From: Bryobacteraceae bacterium CoA2 C42
GTDB lineage: Bacteria > Acidobacteriota > Terriglobia > Bryobacterales > Bryobacteraceae
Length of the DNA stretch: 64,000 bases
Direction: 5' to 3'
Assembly: GCA_019931245.1 (NCBI GenBank)
Contig: JAINDL010000047.1
Coordinates: 1-64,000 of the forward strand
Position 1 is the first letter of the stretch; each line of letters starts with the position of its first letter. Below are positions 22,920 through 33,470 of this stretch, piece by piece. A model generated the notes under the pieces. It saw only the letters and a list, made by a program, of their open reading frames with translations. It searched no databases and was not told the origin of the DNA. Both the position numbers and the translations under genes were made by a program.

Positions 22920-23753
22920 GTGAAGTTATTCGCTCTATTCGCTCTTGTCGCGGTTTCCGCCTCCGCTCAGTCGGCCAAGGATTGGATTCCGCTCTTTAAC
23001 GGCCGGGACCTGACCGGATGGACGCCGAAGATCACCGGCTATCCGGTCGGGGAGAATTTCGCCAACACCTTCCGCGTGCAGGACGGTTACCTGACCGTCG
23101 GCTACGAAGGCTACGACAAGTTCAACCAGCGCTTCGGGCACCTCTTTTACAAAGAGTCCTTCTCGTACTACCGGATTCGCCTCGAGTACCGGTTTATCGG
23201 GAATCAGTCGAACGAAGGGCCGGGCTGGGCAACGCGCAACAGCGGCATCATGGTGCATGGTCAACCGGTCGAGACGATGCAGAAGGATCAGGACTTCCCC
23301 ATTTCGATCGAGGTGCAACTGCTCGGCGGCCTCGGCAAGGGGCCGCGGACGACCGGCAACCTGTGCACCCCGGGCACGAACGTGGAGCGGGACGGGAAGC
23401 TGTTCACCCCGCACTGCCTGAACTCGACGTCGCCGACTTTTGACGGTGACCAGTGGGTGCAGGCCGAGGTGCTCGTGAAGGGCTCCGAATCGGTGGAGCA
23501 CTTCATCAACGGGCAATCCGTGCTCAAGTACGAGCATCCGCAGATTGGCGGCGGCGCGGTGTCCCATCATGACCCGGCCGTGAAGGTAGACGGCAAGCTG
23601 CTCGAGTCCGGCTCGATTTCGCTGCAGAGCGAGAGCCATCCGGTGCAGTTCCGGAAGGTGGAGCTGCTGAACCTGGCCGGGTGTTTGGATAAGAAGGCAA
23701 AGAACTACAAGGCCTATTTGCTTAAATCGGATCCGTCGGCCTGCCGTTTCTAA
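22920..23753 (+). CDS. DUF1080 / 3-keto-disaccharide hydrolase-like exported protein
   Basis: 277 residues with a signal peptide (VKLFALFALVAVSASAQS, first codon GTG). The family signature W-x-P-L-F-N-G-R-D-L-T-G-W is at residues about 23-36; the concanavalin-like fold continues with FSYYRIRLEYRFIG, GIMVHGQPVETM, ISIEVQLLGG and VEHFINGQSVLKYEHPQ. Some DUF1080 members cleave 3-keto-glycosides; activity here is inferred. It follows DUF1501 by 20 nt but has its own possible leaderless promoter. A second DUF1080 gene and a fragment of another lie at 60052-60856. The end has cysteines (GCLDKKAKNY, SACRF). Confidence 0.88.
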   Translation: MKLFALFALVAVSASAQSAKDWIPLFNGRDLTGWTPKITGYPVGENFANTFRVQDGYLTVGYEGYDKFNQRFGHLFYKESFSYYRIRLEYRFIGNQSNEGPGWATRNSGIMVHGQPVETMQKDQDFPISIEVQLLGGLGKGPRTTGNLCTPGTNVERDGKLFTPHCLNSTSPTFDGDQWVQAEVLVKGSESVEHFINGQSVLKYEHPQIGGGAVSHHDPAVKVDGKLLESGSISLQSESHPVQFRKVELLNLAGCLDKKAKNYKAYLLKSDPSACRF

Positions 23754-23759
23754 GGAATC

Positions 23760-23839
23760 GCGCACAACGGACTCGCTACGGCCCGGCAGGAGGGGCGAGT
23801 TCCTCGCCCGTTGGCGCCGAGCCTACGCGGCCTGTGCGC
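23760..23839 (+). repeat. 80-bp palindromic repeat, copy 1
   Basis: Bounded by inverted ends GCGCACA (23760-23766) and TGTGCGC (23833-23839), with an internal hairpin GGGCGAG-TTC-CTCGCCC. Five copies exist in the window: three here in tandem and two in opposite orientation at 33163 and 33256. Confidence 0.85.
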
Positions 23840-23851
23840 TCTTATTGAACC

Positions 23852-23932
23852 GCGCACAACGGACTCGCTGCGGCCCGGCAGGAGGGGCGAGTTCCTGGCC
23901 CGTTTGGTGCCGAGCCTACGCGGCCTGTGCGC
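23852..23932 (+). repeat. 80-bp palindromic repeat, copy 2 (81 bp)
   Basis: Same unit as copy 1 with GCGCACA at 23852 and TGTGCGC ending at 23932; one extra base near the centre and CTGGCC in place of CTCGCC weakens the internal hairpin. It is separated from copy 1 by 12 bp (CTTATTGAAC-type spacer). Confidence 0.85.
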
Positions 23933-23944
23933 TCGTATTGAACC

Positions 23945-24024
23945 GCGCACAACGGACTCGCTTCGGCCCGGCGGGGTGGGCGAGTTCCTCGCCCGTTGGT
24001 GCCGTGTCTACGCGGCCTGTGCGC
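23945..24024 (+). repeat. 80-bp palindromic repeat, copy 3, overlapping the end of the MFS gene
   Basis: Ends GCGCACA (23945-23951) and TGTGCGC (24018-24024). Its right end encodes the last residues and the stop codon of the minus-strand transporter (stop at 24008), so the element has entered or replaced the 3' end of that gene. Confidence 0.85.
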
Positions 24025-25192
24025 TCTTAACGAACAGCAGCAGCGCTCCCACGGCGATCAGAGGGGAGGCGCCGGCCACGACAATGGCCGCGGTATAGTC
24101 CTGCCCGTCGCCGAGCAGGTAGCCGGTAATCAGCGGAGCCAGGGCCCCGGCCACCTGCGCCATCATGTTCTGAAAGCCGAGCGCGCGCCCGACGAGCGCG
24201 CGCGGCACCGCGCTCTGCGACATCGCCCAATAGTTGCCCGCGCCGATGCCCACGCCCATCAGCGAGGCGAGTAGCACCCAGATCACCGGACCGCCCTTGG
24301 GGATCCAGATCAGCCCCAGGAGGATGGACGCCATGGAGAACCCGGCGCAGACGAAGCGCCGCCGCAGGAGCAGCGGATCGGCGGCGCCCCGCAGGGCGCG
24401 GTCGGCCCAGGCTCCGCCCACGAGGTTGACGAGCGCCATGCCGCCAAGCGGCAGCGCCATCGTCAGGCCCATCTTCAGATTCGGAAAGCCGTGCGCCTGC
24501 ATCAGGTAGGCGGGGATCCAGGTCACGACGAAGAACCAGAAATAGGAGTAGAAAAAGACGCTGAGGGAGAGCCCCCAGGCGACCGGCGCCTTGAGGAAAT
24601 CGACCAGTGAGCCTTCGGCCTGGCTGACCGTGGCGACGGCGCCGCGCGGGGCGAGCAGCCACCAGGGCGCCACCCACAGGCAGCCGCCAAGACCCGTGGC
24701 GAGGAACATGGCCCGCCAACCCAGCCACTCGATGAGGGAGGAGCCGATGAGCGCCCCGAGGGCCGGGCCCATCGTCAGGCCGGCGACATAGATAGCCGTC
24801 GGCAGGCCCTGCTCGCGCTCGTTGAAGTTCTGTTTGATGAACGACATGCTGGCCAGCGGGGCGATGGCTTCGCCCATGCCCAGCAACAGGCGCAGGGCGA
24901 ACATCTCTTCAAACGACCGCGCCCAGCCGATGGCGGCCGAGGCGAGGCACCAGAGCAGAAACGCCCCGGCATAGAGCTTGCGGATGCCGAAGCGGTCGAG
25001 CAGCGCCCCGCCCGGCACCTGGAAGGCGGCATAGGTCCAGAAGAAGCTCGACAGCAGCAGCCCCATCTGCGCCGGGGTGAGCGCGAACTCCTGCATGATG
25101 GGCACGGCGGCAATGCTGAGATTGCCACGGTCCATGTAGCTGATGACGATGCCGAGAAAAAGCAGTCCGAGGACGATCCAGCGGCGTTCCAT
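24008..25192 (-). CDS. MFS transporter, anion:cation symporter (ACS)-like
   Basis: 394 residues with about 12 hydrophobic segments. The N-terminus RRWIVLGLLFLGIVISYMDRGNLS and the loop LDRFGIRKLYAGAFLLWC are typical of MFS carriers of the ACS type, which move sugar acids (for example galactonate or glucarate) with protons; the substrate is inferred only. It lies directly after a sugar phosphate isomerase/epimerase-like gene (TAA of that gene abuts this ATG), suggesting joint use of a sugar or sugar acid. Odd feature: the last residues SAQAA and the TAG stop are encoded by an 80-bp repeat (23945-24024). Confidence 0.85.
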   Translation of the reverse strand: MERRWIVLGLLFLGIVISYMDRGNLSIAAVPIMQEFALTPAQMGLLLSSFFWTYAAFQVPGGALLDRFGIRKLYAGAFLLWCLASAAIGWARSFEEMFALRLLLGMGEAIAPLASMSFIKQNFNEREQGLPTAIYVAGLTMGPALGALIGSSLIEWLGWRAMFLATGLGGCLWVAPWWLLAPRGAVATVSQAEGSLVDFLKAPVAWGLSLSVFFYSYFWFFVVTWIPAYLMQAHGFPNLKMGLTMALPLGGMALVNLVGGAWADRALRGAADPLLLRRRFVCAGFSMASILLGLIWIPKGGPVIWVLLASLMGVGIGAGNYWAMSQSAVPRALVGRALGFQNMMAQVAGALAPLITGYLLGDGQDYTAAIVVAGASPLIAVGALLLFVKSAQAA

Positions 25193-29735: not shown

Positions 29736-31007
29736 TCAGGCGAGGCCCGTCAGGTAGTCGAGCTGTCCGGTCGAGTCGCCGAGGCGGTCTACCGGTACGC
29801 CGGCCAGGGCGAGCAGCGAGAGGTGGAGGTTGTCCACCGGGGTGTTCTTCGGGTAGACGATGTGGCGCCCGCCACCGAGTTTGCCACCGGCGACCAGCGT
29901 CGGCAGGTTGTTGTGGTCGTGCGCGTTCGGGTCGCCGATCGAGGCGCCGTAGAGCGCCAAGGTGCTGTCGAGCAGCGTGCCTTCGCCGTCGGGGGTGCTC
30001 TGCAGTTTGTCGAGGAAGTAGGCGAACTGCTCGACGTGAAAGGCGTTGATCCGGGCTACTTTCTCGATTAGCTCCGGGTCGCCGCGGTGGTGCGTGCAGG
30101 AGTGGTGGGCTTCGGGGACGCCGGCTTCGGGGTAGGTGCGCAGGCCGCCTTCGCGGGCCAGCATGAAGGTGATCATGCGCGTCGAGCCCGAGGCAAACGC
30201 GAGCGCCGAGAGGTCGAACAGGAGCCGGGCGTGTTCGCGGTAGCTCGTGGGGATGCCGGCTGGCGCCGTCACGCCAATGCTGGGGCCGGCCTTGTCGAGG
30301 CGCGTCTCCAATTCGCGGATCGCCGTCAGATATTCATCCAGCTTCCGCTTGTCGGTGCCGCCGAGCCGTCCGGCCAGACGAGCCGTTTCCGTGCGCGTGA
30401 GATCGAGAACGCTGTGGCGGGCGGCGCGCTGGTCCGCCGTGAGGCTCGCGTCGCCGAACAGCCGTTCGAAGACCGCGCGCGGGTTCATTTCGGGCGGCAT
30501 GGGCTGTGTGGAGGACTTCCAGGAGATGCTCTGGTAGACGCAGCTGTAGCTGTCGCAGGAACCCACCTGGCGGCTGTCCTCGCAGGTGATTTCGAGCGAA
30601 GGGACGCGGGTGGTGGCGAAGTGCGCGGCGGCAATCTGGTCCATCGAGACGCCGCAGCGGATATCGGCGCCCTCGGTCTTGCGGGGGTGGACGCCGGTCA
30701 GGTAGCTCGAAGCGGCGCGGGCGTGGTCGCCGGCGCCGTCGCCGAGCGCGTTGCCCTGGTTGGCCGCCAGGCCCGAGAGCACGCTGATGCGGGCACGGTG
30801 CTTTTCAAGAGCGGCCAGCGTGCGGGGGAAGGCGAAGCCGGTGCCGGGCGCGGTGGGCGTCCAGTACGGCATGATCTTGCCGCTGGGCGCGTAGACGACA
30901 ATGAGCCGCTTCGGCGGGGCCGCCGGCGCCGCCATGGCCTCGAGCCACGGCAACCCGATGGCCGCTCCCACACCCCGCAACAGATGCCTTCTCGATAGCT
31001 TACTCAT
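29736..31007 (-). CDS. DUF1552 family protein, Tat-exported
   Basis: 423 residues. Tat signal at the start (KLSRRHLLRGVGAAIGLPWLE). DUF1552 blocks are clear: RLIVVYAPSGKIMPYWTP, RISVLSGLAANQGNALGDG, HARAASSYLTGVHPRKTEGA, VPSLEITCEDSRQVGSCDSY, and TLALYGASIGDPNAHDHNNL near the end with LVAGGKLGGGRHI. The role is unknown; DUF1552 genes are usually paired with DUF1592 cytochrome-type genes, as here. The ATG at 31007 overlaps the DUF1592 stop (ATGA), so the two are translationally coupled. Confidence 0.9.
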   Translation of the reverse strand: MSKLSRRHLLRGVGAAIGLPWLEAMAAPAAPPKRLIVVYAPSGKIMPYWTPTAPGTGFAFPRTLAALEKHRARISVLSGLAANQGNALGDGAGDHARAASSYLTGVHPRKTEGADIRCGVSMDQIAAAHFATTRVPSLEITCEDSRQVGSCDSYSCVYQSISWKSSTQPMPPEMNPRAVFERLFGDASLTADQRAARHSVLDLTRTETARLAGRLGGTDKRKLDEYLTAIRELETRLDKAGPSIGVTAPAGIPTSYREHARLLFDLSALAFASGSTRMITFMLAREGGLRTYPEAGVPEAHHSCTHHRGDPELIEKVARINAFHVEQFAYFLDKLQSTPDGEGTLLDSTLALYGASIGDPNAHDHNNLPTLVAGGKLGGGRHIVYPKNTPVDNLHLSLLALAGVPVDRLGDSTGQLDYLTGLA

Positions 31008-33370
31008 ACGCCTCCTTCCCCGCGCCGTTTCCGGAACGGTTCGCTTTCTACAATACCCAGGATCAGCTCCTGCATGCGGTAGCCGTTCTTCCGCAGCCGG
31101 TCGACGATCAGCCGGACAGCGGGCCGGTCCGATAACTCGACGCCGCGGCCGAGGGCGTAGGTGAGCATCTTTTCGGTGAGGGCGCGGGCGAAGACGTCGG
31201 GATCGGCCTTGAGGATCTGCTTCATTTCGGCGGGCGTCGTGAAACGGACCCCGCCGGGCAGCTCGCCCGAGGCGTCCTCATCGCGCCAGCGGCCGATGGC
31301 GTCGTAGTTTTCGAGGCCAAAGCCGAGCGGGTCCATGCGCGTGTGGCAGGCGGCACAGGACGGGTTGCTGCGGTGTTGGGCGAGCTGCTGCCGCATGGAG
31401 CCTCCGCTGGCGGCGGCCTTCTCTTCGAGCGCCGGGACGTTGGGCGGGGGCGGCGGCGGGGGCTGGTTGAGCAGGTTGTCGAGGATCCATTTGCCGCGGA
31501 TGACGGGGCTGGTGCGCGTGGGATAGGACGAGACGGTGAGCACGCTGCCGTGCGTGAGGACGCCCCCGCGCTGCACCCCATCGAGCGCCACGCGGCGGAA
31601 GGCTTCGCCGCGGACGCCGTCGATGCCGTAGTGCCTGGCGAGCGGCTCGTTGAGGTAGGTGAACGGGGCGTCGAGCAGGTCGAGGACGGAGCGGTTCTCG
31701 CGCAGGATCTCGGTGAAGAAGAGCTCGGTTTCCGTGCGCATGGCGGCGGCGAGCTCGCCGGTGAAGGAAGGGAAGAGCTTCGCGTCCGGCTTCAGTACGG
31801 AGAGGTTGCGGGTTTGGAGCCACTGCCCGGTGAAGCTTTCCACAAACGCGGCGGCGCGCGGGTGGGCGAGCAGGCGCTGCGTCTGTTCGGCGAGGCGAGC
31901 CGGCAGCGTGCCCGAGTCGGCGAGACGGGAGAGTTCGCCGTCCGGCAGGCTGCCCCAGAGGAAGTAGGACAGGCGCGTGGCGAGTTCGTGCGCGGAGACC
32001 GGTTGCGGGCCCGGGCCGCGGTCGGCTTCGAGGCGGAACAGGAAGTGGGGCGAGACGAGGATGGCCATCAGGGCGCTGCGCAGGGCCTTTTCGAAGGATC
32101 CGGTGCGGGCCTGTTCGCGGGCGGCGAGGTTGAGCAGGGCGGAGGTTTCGGCGCTGGTAACCGGGCGGCGCCAGGCTTGGCGGGCGAGGGGGAGCAGGAT
32201 CTGCCGGGCGCAGGCGGGGCTGCCGGCGGGGCCGGCGCAGGCGAGGAGCCGGCGGTCGGGCTGCTGGCCATCGGGCAGGGGGCCGAAGACCTCGACGGAT
32301 TCGAGGTAGGGCGGGGCGCCTTTGTAGGGCGGGTCGGGGAGGACGGCGATGGTGGCTTCGACGCGGTGGCGGCCGGCCGGGACGCGGACGCGTGGGGCTT
32401 CGAGGCCGCGGTCGATCTGGTAGTAGAAGCGGAGCTCGCCTTCGTGGGCGAGTTGGCCGTCGACGGTGAGGCGGAGGCGGACCCGGGTGCCGTCTTTGAG
32501 CGCCTGGTAGAAGGCGGTACGGAGGGTGTAGAGACCGTCGATGGGGAAGACGTGGTCGATGGTGAGGCGCAGTTGACGGTCCTGGCCGATGCGTTCGGCG
32601 AGGTAGCGGTGCATGGTGGCCGGGACGGTTTCTCCGGGGACGGGGATGGCCGCGTGGGCGACCCGTTCGGCGGCCTTGAGGTACTGATCCATCAGGGCAG
32701 AGTTGACCGAGAGGACGTCGCCGATGTTGTCAAAGCCGTACCCGTAGGGGTCGGGGGGAAGCTCTTCAGCGGGGTGGAGGTCGATGCCAAGGAGGTCGCG
32801 GACGGAGTTGGCGTACTCGAAGCGGTTGAGGCGCCGGGCGGTGACGCGGCCGGGGTCGACGGGGCGGGCGCGGTCGAGCGCTTCGTAGGCGGCTTCGATC
32901 TGTTGGGCGATGGCGGCAAGCTGCGGCGGAGCGGGCCGGGGGGCGCCGGGGGGCGGCATTTCACCGGCGCGGAGGCGGGCGGCGATGCGTTCCCAGCGCT
33001 CGCGGTGGGTGGGGGAGTTGGGGTTGGGGGCGTCGAGCAGGGCGGTGAGCGAGAGGCCGCCGGCGGGGGCGGCTGCGCCGTGGCAGCCGGCGCAGTGCCG
33101 GCGCAGGGCGGGTTTGACGGAGTCGGGGAACGATTCAGCGCCGAACGCCAGCGTGCCCAGAAGCGCACAGGCCGCGCAGGCCCGGCACCAACGGGCGAGG
33201 AACTCGCCCCTCCCGCCGGGCCGAAGCGAGTCCGTTGTGCGCGAGTTCCAGAAGAGCGCACAGGCCGCGCAGGCCCGGCACCAACGGGCGAGGAACTCGC
33301 CCCTCCCGCCGGGCCGAAGCGAGTCCGTTGTGCGCGAGTTCCCCAGAAGGAATGCGGCGAAAGGCCTCAT
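31004..33370 (-). CDS. DUF1592-type (PSCyt3/DUF1587/1592/1588/1585) protein with repeat-derived insertion in signal region
   Basis: 788 residues. After the N-terminal region a haem-type CAGCH motif (C93, C96, H97) starts the cytochrome-like domain. DUF1587 follows (RLNRFEYANSVRDLLGIDL), then DUF1595/1592 regions (ELATRLSYFLWGSLPD, ADSGTLPARLAEQTQRLLAH, ESFTGQWLQTRNL) and DUF1588 (GGVLTHGSVLTVSSYPTRTS, PVIRGKWILDNLL, CAACHTRMDPLGFGLENYDA) and DUF1585 at the end. Residues about 11-71 are two in-frame copies of the 80-bp repeat, splitting what would be a plain signal peptide (MRPFAAFLLG then GTLAFGAES). A TAAACT box is 7 nt before the ATG (33378-33383, minus). Coupled to DUF1552. Confidence 0.88.
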   Translation of the reverse strand: MRPFAAFLLGNSRTTDSLRPGGRGEFLARWCRACAACALFWNSRTTDSLRPGGRGEFLARWCRACAACALLGTLAFGAESFPDSVKPALRRHCAGCHGAAAPAGGLSLTALLDAPNPNSPTHRERWERIAARLRAGEMPPPGAPRPAPPQLAAIAQQIEAAYEALDRARPVDPGRVTARRLNRFEYANSVRDLLGIDLHPAEELPPDPYGYGFDNIGDVLSVNSALMDQYLKAAERVAHAAIPVPGETVPATMHRYLAERIGQDRQLRLTIDHVFPIDGLYTLRTAFYQALKDGTRVRLRLTVDGQLAHEGELRFYYQIDRGLEAPRVRVPAGRHRVEATIAVLPDPPYKGAPPYLESVEVFGPLPDGQQPDRRLLACAGPAGSPACARQILLPLARQAWRRPVTSAETSALLNLAAREQARTGSFEKALRSALMAILVSPHFLFRLEADRGPGPQPVSAHELATRLSYFLWGSLPDGELSRLADSGTLPARLAEQTQRLLAHPRAAAFVESFTGQWLQTRNLSVLKPDAKLFPSFTGELAAAMRTETELFFTEILRENRSVLDLLDAPFTYLNEPLARHYGIDGVRGEAFRRVALDGVQRGGVLTHGSVLTVSSYPTRTSPVIRGKWILDNLLNQPPPPPPPNVPALEEKAAASGGSMRQQLAQHRSNPSCAACHTRMDPLGFGLENYDAIGRWRDEDASGELPGGVRFTTPAEMKQILKADPDVFARALTEKMLTYALGRGVELSDRPAVRLIVDRLRKNGYRMQELILGIVESEPFRKRRGEGGV
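33163..33242 (-). repeat. 80-bp palindromic repeat, copy 4, inside the DUF1592 coding region
   Basis: GCGCACA at 33163-33169 and TGTGCGC at 33236-33242. Inverted relative to copies 1-3. By eye identical to copy 5. Flanked by CCAGAA at 33157-33162 and 33248-33253. Confidence 0.85.
33256..33335 (-). repeat. 80-bp palindromic repeat, copy 5, inside the DUF1592 coding region
   Basis: GCGCACA at 33256-33262 and TGTGCGC at 33329-33335; period 93 bp from copy 4, a multiple of three, so the reading frame is kept. CCAGAA occurs again beyond it at 33343-33348. Compared with copy 3 the TAG that ends the transporter gene is CAG here, which leaves the frame open. Confidence 0.85.
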
Positions 33371-33377
33371 GGGAGGG

Positions 33378-33383
33378 AGTTTA
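33378..33383 (-). promoter_or_regulatory. TAAACT -10-like box, 7 nt before the DUF1592 start
   Basis: On the minus strand TAAACT then CCCTCCC then ATG (33370). The geometry fits a leaderless message; the context GATAAACTCCC is shared with the PSD1 gene at 4678. Confidence 0.42.
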
Positions 33384-33424
33384 TCATTGCCCTCAAATCA
33401 TTGCCCTCACATCATGGCCCTCAA
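33383..33424. repeat. Three tandem 14-bp repeats upstream of apt
   Basis: ATCATTGCCCTCAA (33383-33396), ATCATTGCCCTCAC (33397-33410) and ATCATGGCCCTCAA (33411-33424). They fill the intergenic space between the divergent DUF1592 and apt genes. A regulator site cluster or simple slippage are both possible. TAGAAT at 33451-33456 is a candidate -10 box for apt. Confidence 0.7.
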
Positions 33425-33470
33425 AGGGCCGCGACCGCCGGGAGGGCTGGTAGAATAGGGGACTGCACCC

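Follow-up and report, generated by a model that had tools for sequence, protein, structure and literature searches.

A mobile palindromic repeat family of Bryobacteraceae with a junction motif, a strand bias and in-frame insertions in signal peptides

The palindromic repeat described here, R, is almost certainly a mobile element. R is dispersed through its host genomes, differs in presence and in copy number at the same places in close relatives, lies next to a short junction motif, is biased in orientation relative to GC skew and is inserted in frame within genes. As a whole, these results are probably best explained by a non-autonomous palindrome that hops as single-stranded DNA. Although palindromic repeats are widespread, they are seldom caught moving. 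The filled and empty sites, the motif, the strand bias and the copy-number differences found in close relatives make the route by which R spreads testable.

R was recognised in a stretch of 64,000 nt of the source genome (the window), where it forms two opposed arrays. Re-reading of the sequence confirmed the five palindromic units of ~80 nt of the original prediction at the positions given there. The in-frame position of array 2, the CTTYTRAG-like motif and the strand bias described below go beyond that prediction. Array 1, on the plus strand, comprises copy 1 (23760–23839), copy 2 (23852–23932, 81 nt) and copy 3 (23945–24024), and array 2, on the minus strand, comprises a pair at 33163–33242 and 33256–33335 whose units are identical across 88 nt. 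The start-to-start distances of 92, 93 and 93 nt and the spacers of 12, 12 and 13 nt across both arrays agreed with the prediction, as did the ends GCGCACA and TGTGCGC, which were found in all five units. The predicted inner hairpin GGGCGAG-TTC-CTCGCCC held exactly for four of the units but not for copy 2 of array 1, which has CTGGCCC. Each folded on its own, three of the five units formed one long hairpin, and the folding of four strands gave z = -1.6 to -5.1 against dinucleotide shuffles. The units are not a product of chance, as the 80-mer was found across the genome with up to 99% identity to the consensus. Known RNA families gave a single match in the region 23500–24300, far under its gathering score. 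The predicted absence of a nearby transposase fits the list of open reading frames between 19 and 38 kb, inspected by eye, and the Pfam assignments of the five neighbours.

When the whole source genome and its relatives were searched, the family predicted from the window proved to be dispersed and present in many copies. The source genome (6.07 Mb, 237 contigs, 97.7% complete) had at least 87 matches to R, at least 61 of which were full-length, that is, covered the whole 81-nt query or all except its first two bases as counted by hand from the match rows. These counts are lower bounds since 40 of 144 candidate stretches were scored and at least eight contigs of the assembly end within a copy. 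Among 61 genomes, R matches were found in 15 of the 19 members of the genus, in one of the 18 genomes from other genera of the family and in none of the 24 genomes beyond; the match in one positive genus member, G018, was weak (E=4.9e-4). Up to 15 candidates were scored per relative, so that each count is a minimum and a zero denotes none among those scored. Seven genomes had at least 13 matches, namely the source genome (G000), G010 (at least 36), G016, G006, G007, G013 and G014 (at least 15). A scan of one genome per species found at least 88 stretches matching R, and the 80 of these that were listed have the titles of Acidobacteria, Acidobacteriaceae, Bryobacterales, Bryobacteraceae and Candidatus Sulfopaludibacter metagenome-assembled genomes, some of them from lakes by title. 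Viral contigs held no exact-pattern match and plasmids no sequence similar to R, and carriage by phages or plasmids was rejected on these grounds. The titles and abstract openings of the open-access literature searched included none describing this family. For the analyses below, 173 R sites were pooled from the source genome, four relatives and named records, some of which represent the same genomes, and sites with identical flanks were merged within this set.

Comparison with relatives revealed both filled and empty sites. Over 1 kb beside array 2, the two closest relatives, G010 and G016, are 96% and 93% identical to the source genome, and both lack array 2 at the corresponding place. The empty site in G010 reads CATTC-CTTCTGGG-CACG on the minus strand, and the filled site of the source genome reads CATTC-CTTCTGGG-GAACTC-R-TCTTCTGGAACTC-R-TTCTGGG-CACG. 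The left-junction target motif CTTCTGGG, the single copy of the G010 empty site, thus lies at 33342–33349 on the minus strand; the left tail GAACTC (33336–33341) and the right-junction target motif TTCTGGG (33156–33162), on the same strand, were assigned from the sequence and the relatives. Array 1 has counterparts in G016 (three units) and G010 (two units) at the same place, which is empty in G009, G001, G017, G012 and G006, and the neighbouring gene had no match in the remaining ten genus genomes. In G009, G001 and G017 the unoccupied site is CTTCTAAC. By comparison with empty sites, the left target-like motif of array 1, TTTCTAAG, occupies 23747–23754 on the plus strand and contains the TAA stop codon of the 3-keto-disaccharide hydrolase gene lying upstream. 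It is followed by GAATC (23755–23759), which is a left tail of the GAAC(N)C type by flank alignment, and the right junction of the array, TCTTAACGAAC, lies at 24025–24035 according to the sequence and the relatives. A different hairpin of 27 nt, TTCTAACCAGCGGCGGGGTCCCGCCGCTTCTAAC, is inserted at the array 1 site of G013 and is flanked by the same TTCTAAC motif. It occurs once in G013 and was not found in the four other genomes searched; other hairpins with the flanking motif of R amounted to two single finds in the available loci, one of them TTCTAACCAGCGGCGGGGTCCCGCCGCTTCTAAC.

A survey of empty sites was performed in five relatives with the joined flanks of those 14 of the 42 arrays of the source genome that had both flanks present. 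Joined empty sites were obtained for seven of the 14 in the loci fetched (L003, L010, L016, L020, L030, L040 and L047), although the matches at L030 could belong to paralogues from a multi-copy gene; for the other seven, no joined site was present in the loci fetched from the five relatives. Two further empty sites were found (L002/L148 and L050/L133), and copy number differed at shared sites, with one unit versus two at L054/L093 and three versus one at L047/L109. The presence of R therefore varies at the same places among close relatives, as anticipated for a mobile repeat. The contrary case of a sequence confined to two places and fixed in all relatives is excluded by the dispersal and the empty sites. 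Collectively, the genome-wide copies, polymorphic presence and empty sites uphold the original prediction of a small non-autonomous mobile element.

Alignment of 92 distinct flank pairs (101 before merging) gave the left-flank consensus C-TTYT-R-A-G, followed by GAAC(N)C and then by R. The GAAC(N)C tail was 6 nt long in 38 pairs, 5 nt in 31, 4 nt in 17 and undefined in six. The right flank of these pairs starts with TTYTRA and is less sharp than the left. At L010 and at array 2 of the window, the empty site has one copy of a 7–8 nt motif and the filled site has two, one to either side of the insert. Over all sites, the motif copies agreed at 3.84 of 7 letters within a site compared to 3.67 between sites (p=0.047). 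Single copies gave 3.88 versus 3.70 of 7 (p=0.08), with one C/T position of the motif agreeing in 0.60 versus 0.44 (p=0.0095), and arrays alone had no within-site excess. The left motif mismatches the target at the empty sites of L016, L050 and L003. Given this weak agreement and these mismatches, a classical target duplication is not established by the flank motifs, and neither is a clean IS605-type junction. The left motif may be partly supplied by the element.

Among 200 units, 148 were 80 nt long and 24 were a short form of 31 nt; the unit finder retained 48 full units of the source genome, compared to the at least 61 matches obtained by search. The short form, GCGCACAACGGACTCGCTTCGGCCTGTGCGC, makes up the right end of arrays L049, L050, L058 and L056, and also occurs alone and in arrays with a period of ~44 nt. 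The 59 spacers within arrays follow a different consensus, TYTTNNGGAAC(N)C. In the source genome, units of the same array were 95.1% alike (19 pairs) and units of different arrays 93.1% (1109 pairs). Since units of the same array are barely more alike than others, most arrays are not fresh local duplications, although array 2 of the window, with its identical units, may be one. Comparison of 55 diverse units showed conservation of ~23 nt at either end and a variable middle. RNAalifold kept only 10 pairs in this set with no double-sided compensatory change, so that this alignment gives no sign of selection on the hairpin itself. Three units (L245:245–324, L037:1501–1580 and L258:3980–4059) have the central loop GAGGAACTC or GAGCAACTC in place of GAGTTCCTC, and look as though the tip of the hairpin were inverted.

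The orientation of R was compared with the base composition of its surroundings at the 163 sites whose flanks totalled 4 kb or more. At 128 of these, the strand reading GCGCACAACGG was the G-rich strand of the surroundings (up to 8 kb). The bias was kept after merging of orthologues (104 of 128 clusters), which put 24 sites into one group, repeats being in their flanks. Mean GC3 skew was +0.07 for genes on the strand of the element (n=276) and -0.31 for genes on the other strand (n=328), in a tally that counts genes near two sites twice. As the skew is higher on the element's strand, the bias is not one of gene orientation. With repeats masked, R was on the G-rich strand at 127 of 163 sites, compared to an expected fraction of 0.56–0.67 from the supply of TTYT, CTTYTRR, YTTYTRR or TTYTRA and of 0.59–0.64 from full flank profiles. 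For the strict 7-mer TTYTRAG (100 versus 27 copies, 127 in total), the expectation was 0.79 and the excess was gone (p=0.64). The supply of the motif therefore accounts for part of the strand bias, or for the whole if TTYTRAG is what counts. GC skew was used as a proxy for the replication strand, the G-rich strand usually being the leading-strand sequence. If the G-rich strand is the leading strand here, the lagging-strand template would carry the element and the motif would lie 5' of it, an arrangement found in IS200/IS605 elements.

Gene context was assessed at 122 sites with usable flanks, 51 of the 173 being dropped for flanks that were short or contained N. Of these sites, 99 were intergenic and 23 intragenic according to a home-made gene finder, which errs at times (in the window, a false minus-strand gene was called over apt and ispE). 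Non-inserted motif copies were intergenic in 20% of cases (174 of 855 YTTYTRR). This far lower share indicates a strong depletion of genic insertions of R, which is presumably due to selection. At L016, the insert adds 92 nt to a called gene, which is not a multiple of three, and the downstream frame differs from that of the relatives; some insertions, such as this one, would be harmful. At the 82 intergenic sites with both neighbours called, the orientations were balanced (L-R- 23, L-R+ 21, L+R- 20 and L+R+ 18). The idea of a mobile terminator with a set orientation to genes was rejected for lack of such a preference.

Of the 120 sites tested (53 of the 173 being dropped for short or N-containing flanks), 14 had R in frame within a hydrophobic segment at the N-terminus. 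Such cases were defined by a start within 30 codons upstream, a frame running through the array for at least 100 further codons and a hydrophobic N-terminal stretch. The frame was +1 in 11 cases and +0 in three, and none used the other four frames. The 14 cases include two orthologue pairs, and the L141 and L232 genes may begin after the array, leaving about ten independent cases. Motif controls fell at like positions in 14 of 855 YTTYTRR (1.6%), 2 of 120 CTTYTRA (1.7%) and 14 of 434 CTTCTG (3.2%), counted at codons 3–25 of called genes, a rule other than that used for R sites. The recipient proteins include an M1 peptidase, a TonB-dependent-receptor-like outer membrane protein and a gamma-glutamyltranspeptidase. 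Outside the 14, four further likely cases were noted by eye: L009/L216 (esterase family), L095, L107 at 5685 (Tat-like leader) and L038. Several of the N-terminal segments hit were shown, or are likely, to be pre-existing signal peptides.

Array 2 of the window is one such insertion. It lies in a planctomycete-type cytochrome c/DUF1592 protein gene (31004–33370, minus strand), the product of which has Pfam domains PSCyt1, PSD2–PSD5 and PSCyt3, including DUF1585, 1587, 1588, 1592 and 1595. The protein starts MRPFAAFLLG-[62 residues]-TLAFGAESF, so that the array is in frame within the signal peptide, predicted by eye, and adds 62 residues to it. The N-terminus is uninterrupted in G010 (MRPLAAFLLGTLAFGADSF), in G016 (MRPFAAFLLGTLAFCAESF) and in G009 and G001. 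Directly upstream of this gene, at 33383–33425, a 14-nt unit, ATCATTGCCCTCAA, is repeated three times in tandem; G010 has a single copy at the same place with one base changed. Array 1 altered the other end of a protein. The right end of its copy 3 supplies the terminal SAQAA and the stop codon to an MFS transporter gene (24008–25192, minus strand; Pfam MFS_1), which ends ...LLLFVKSAQAA in the source genome, ...LLLFVRSGRRPDPA in the array-free G009 and ...LLLFVRGEG in the array-bearing G010 and G016. A protein with CxxCH motifs likewise has R in frame, here in its middle part (L244:4003 and L274:4043 in coordinates oriented by the element; source genome and G016, 27 versus 58 residues), which extends tolerated insertions beyond signal peptides.

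We propose that R is the body of a non-autonomous element, a hairpin of ~80 nt behind the 4–6 nt tail GAAC(N)C, which would insert at CTTYTRAG-like sites and then stand singly or in head-to-tail arrays. The element would fold as single-stranded DNA at replication forks. A nuclease or transposase acting in trans on single-stranded DNA, IS200/IS605- or REP-like and perhaps lost since, would insert it into the lagging-strand template. The odds that R spreads by such a single-strand route are about even. Arrays would grow head-to-tail by insertion beside earlier copies. Most intragenic insertions would be purged, and those in signal peptides would survive because CTT CTG encodes Leu-Leu there and because a unit plus motif of 93 nt equals 31 codons and keeps the frame. 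No host function would be needed, and passive tolerance is probably the reason for the enrichment in signal peptides. A bolder reading, which we consider doubtful, would make R a mobile protein-export module: a folded strand hopping at forks, moved by an enzyme beyond Y1/RAYT to a Leu-Leu target, whose 31-residue modules would rebuild signal peptides. The affected proteins would then be secreted and outer-membrane proteins that are rebuilt repeatedly, and this is equally doubtful.

The alternative that survives best, itself rather unlikely, would make R a true REP family. The RAYT that spread it, either TnpA_REP or class 3 TnpA, would have disappeared from most of these genomes or be hidden in an assembly gap. 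The hairpin, the high copy number and the apparent lagging-strand preference would all fit. Y1/RAYT enzymes were searched for with PF01797 in the source genome and the genus genomes. The source genome had eight Y1_Tnp matches, all of which aligned to an IS200-type query of the same family, so that the RAYT suggested in the original prediction was not found there. No significant R match was present near these genes (flanks of up to 1.5 kb a side, some ending at contig ends), and the ends of the IS200 are unlike those of R. G010, with its many copies of R, had no Y1 match at E≤1e-5. On these grounds, IS200-type Y1 enzymes were rejected as the mobiliser. Quentin et al. (2018, PMC6006769) describe a class 3 of Y1 enzymes that is rare and that is associated with ~600 hairpins in Solibacter usitatus, and a class 3 TnpA protein, recognised by its NHVH and YVVEEQ signatures, was found in G008. 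Matches to it were obtained in four of the 19 genus genomes (G008, G018, G002 and G014) and in none of the other 15 at E≤0.001; the class 3 TnpA(Y1) loci are L302/L324 in G008 and L325 in G018. G014 is the sole R-rich genome of the four, and its two matches are partial, one of them holding a stop. No class 3 match was obtained at E≤0.001 in the R-rich G000, G010, G016, G006, G007 and G013 (58% complete). Furthermore, the G008 gene is flanked by another hairpin sequence (CCGAGCCGCGACCG..., of type CCGAGCCGCGACCGTAAGGGAGCGG), and no significant R match was present near class 3 genes. Class 3 TnpA was rejected as the mobiliser given its presence in four of 19 genomes, only one of them R-rich and that one with partial matches. 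R also lacks the GT[AG]G foot, and its 80-nt units compare with 20–40 bp for REPs (PMC3733652).

Somewhat less probable still is a classical MITE moved by a DDE transposase with target duplications of 7–8 bp. The 7-nt inverted ends GCGCACA/TGTGCGC and the motif seen once in the empty and twice in the filled sites of L010 and array 2 argue for it. However, GAAC(N)C lies between the left motif and R without a counterpart on the right, leaving the inverted ends not both terminal, and the two motif copies are hardly correlated within a site. A double-strand mechanism would also predict no strand bias, yet a bias was seen. In addition, no end of R was seen to bound a longer element in the source genome, where the partial copies were short forms, lay within or next to arrays, or stood where a contig ends.

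It is improbable that R-carrying circles enter CTTYTRAG sites through a tyrosine recombinase that, like those of integrons, acts on a folded site, with arrays as successive integrations. Such a process would be expected to leave head-to-tail arrays with distinct spacers and a motif on both sides, and recombination at a folded site would likewise prefer one strand. The integron integrase model TIGR02249 had no match above its curated cut-off of 265 bits in any of the 19 genus genomes, and integron integrase was accordingly rejected as the mobiliser. Sub-threshold matches were equally frequent in the genus (19 of 19) and in control genomes (14 of 14). The strongest partial match, in G006, reached 155 bits over 97 of 315 positions with a stop inside. 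attC boxes are defined as RYYYAAC/GTTRRRY, and none were seen at R by eye.

Very improbable is a route through RNA, in which a reverse transcriptase would insert the copied hairpin where lagging-strand DNA is nicked. Such a route would account for the asymmetric ends, the short motif at the insertion point and the strand bias, and reverse-transcriptase matches occurred in 15 of the 19 genomes. Their numbers do not track R copy number, with one match each in G010 and G016 and none in G013, and this lead was rejected for that reason. The source genome has eight places with a reverse-transcriptase match at E≤1e-5, the most among the 19 genomes. To our knowledge, there is no bacterial precedent for insertion of such hairpins by a reverse transcriptase. 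That R is a fixed, non-mobile regulatory or terminator hairpin, as a strong hairpin followed by TTYT might suggest, is contradicted by its variable presence at the same places in close relatives and by the balanced orientation to neighbouring genes at the 82 intergenic sites, and is most improbable.

No cognate transposase was thus found in the searches for Y1/RAYT, class 3 TnpA, integron integrase and reverse transcriptase. Since most of the R-richest genomes are without detectable enzymes of the usual kinds, either the enzyme that moves R is lost quickly or it is of a kind not recognised by these searches. The in-frame insertions in signal peptides are natural experiments on the tolerable length of an export signal.

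Among known systems, R resembles REPs and REPINs in being a non-autonomous palindrome of high copy number (at least 61 full-length copies) that lies mostly between genes (99 of 122 sites). REPs themselves are described as sometimes wholly inside ORFs (PMC3733652). R differs in its 80-nt length, its head-to-tail arrays with short spacers and its CTTYTRAG-like target. In place of the REP tag GT[AG]G (or CGTC), the 92 flank pairs have a GAAC(N)C-like left foot and a TTYT-like right foot, and the RAYT gene that typically lies flanked by the repeats of a REP family was not found. The REP label of the original prediction was given up, with neither the foot nor a RAYT in the source genome nor a Y1 match at E≤1e-5 in G010; R is not filed as a REP since both tag and RAYT were tested for and absent. 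The BIME label failed as well. BIMEs consist of alternating inverted REP units, whereas each window array is head-to-tail in one direction (arrays outside the window were assembled from same-strand units only).

The hairpins associated with class 3 TnpA(Y1) are similar to R in their related hosts, high copy number and hairpin form. Solibacter usitatus belongs to the same order as the hosts of R. Such hairpins are known from Acidobacteria and Planctomycetes (PMC6006769). In contrast, no class 3 gene was detected in six of the seven genomes with at least 13 R matches, and the combination of a CnGA foot and a repeat-flanked class 3 gene was not found for R; CTGA does sit in its TTCTGAG motif, though 5–7 nt away from the hairpin. 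IS200/IS605 elements have a hairpin at each end. R shares with this family a hairpin and a short motif 5' of the element, and may share a preference for the lagging-strand template as read from GC skew, but has one compound hairpin and no inner transposase gene. A preference of Y1 enzymes and IS200/IS605 for lagging-strand DNA is described in PMC6006769. DDE-type MITEs have inverted repeats at both extreme ends, which R does not, and attC cassettes go with an integron integrase in the genome, which was not found for R (TIGR02249, 0 of 19).

Rickettsia palindromic elements, described in PMC2229807 as palindromes of 105–146 bp in frame in protein genes, resemble R in their in-frame fusion within protein genes; their target duplication is marked '?' in a table of that paper. 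By description, R is set apart from them by its occurrence in another phylum, its arrays, its insertion motif, its strand bias and its concentration in signal peptides. The 168-bp enterobacterial YPAL/RU-2 element of Yersinia and Erwinia is described as a mobile palindrome that in frame forms part of signal peptides, with YPO1552 as the one named locus (PMC2229807), whereas R has about ten independent insertions in N-terminal hydrophobic segments. Palindromes fused in frame to proteins (Rickettsia palindromic elements) and to signal peptides (YPAL/RU-2) are both on record, and what seems new here is an in-frame palindrome that combines a strand bias with an insertion motif in genomes where no enzyme for it was found.
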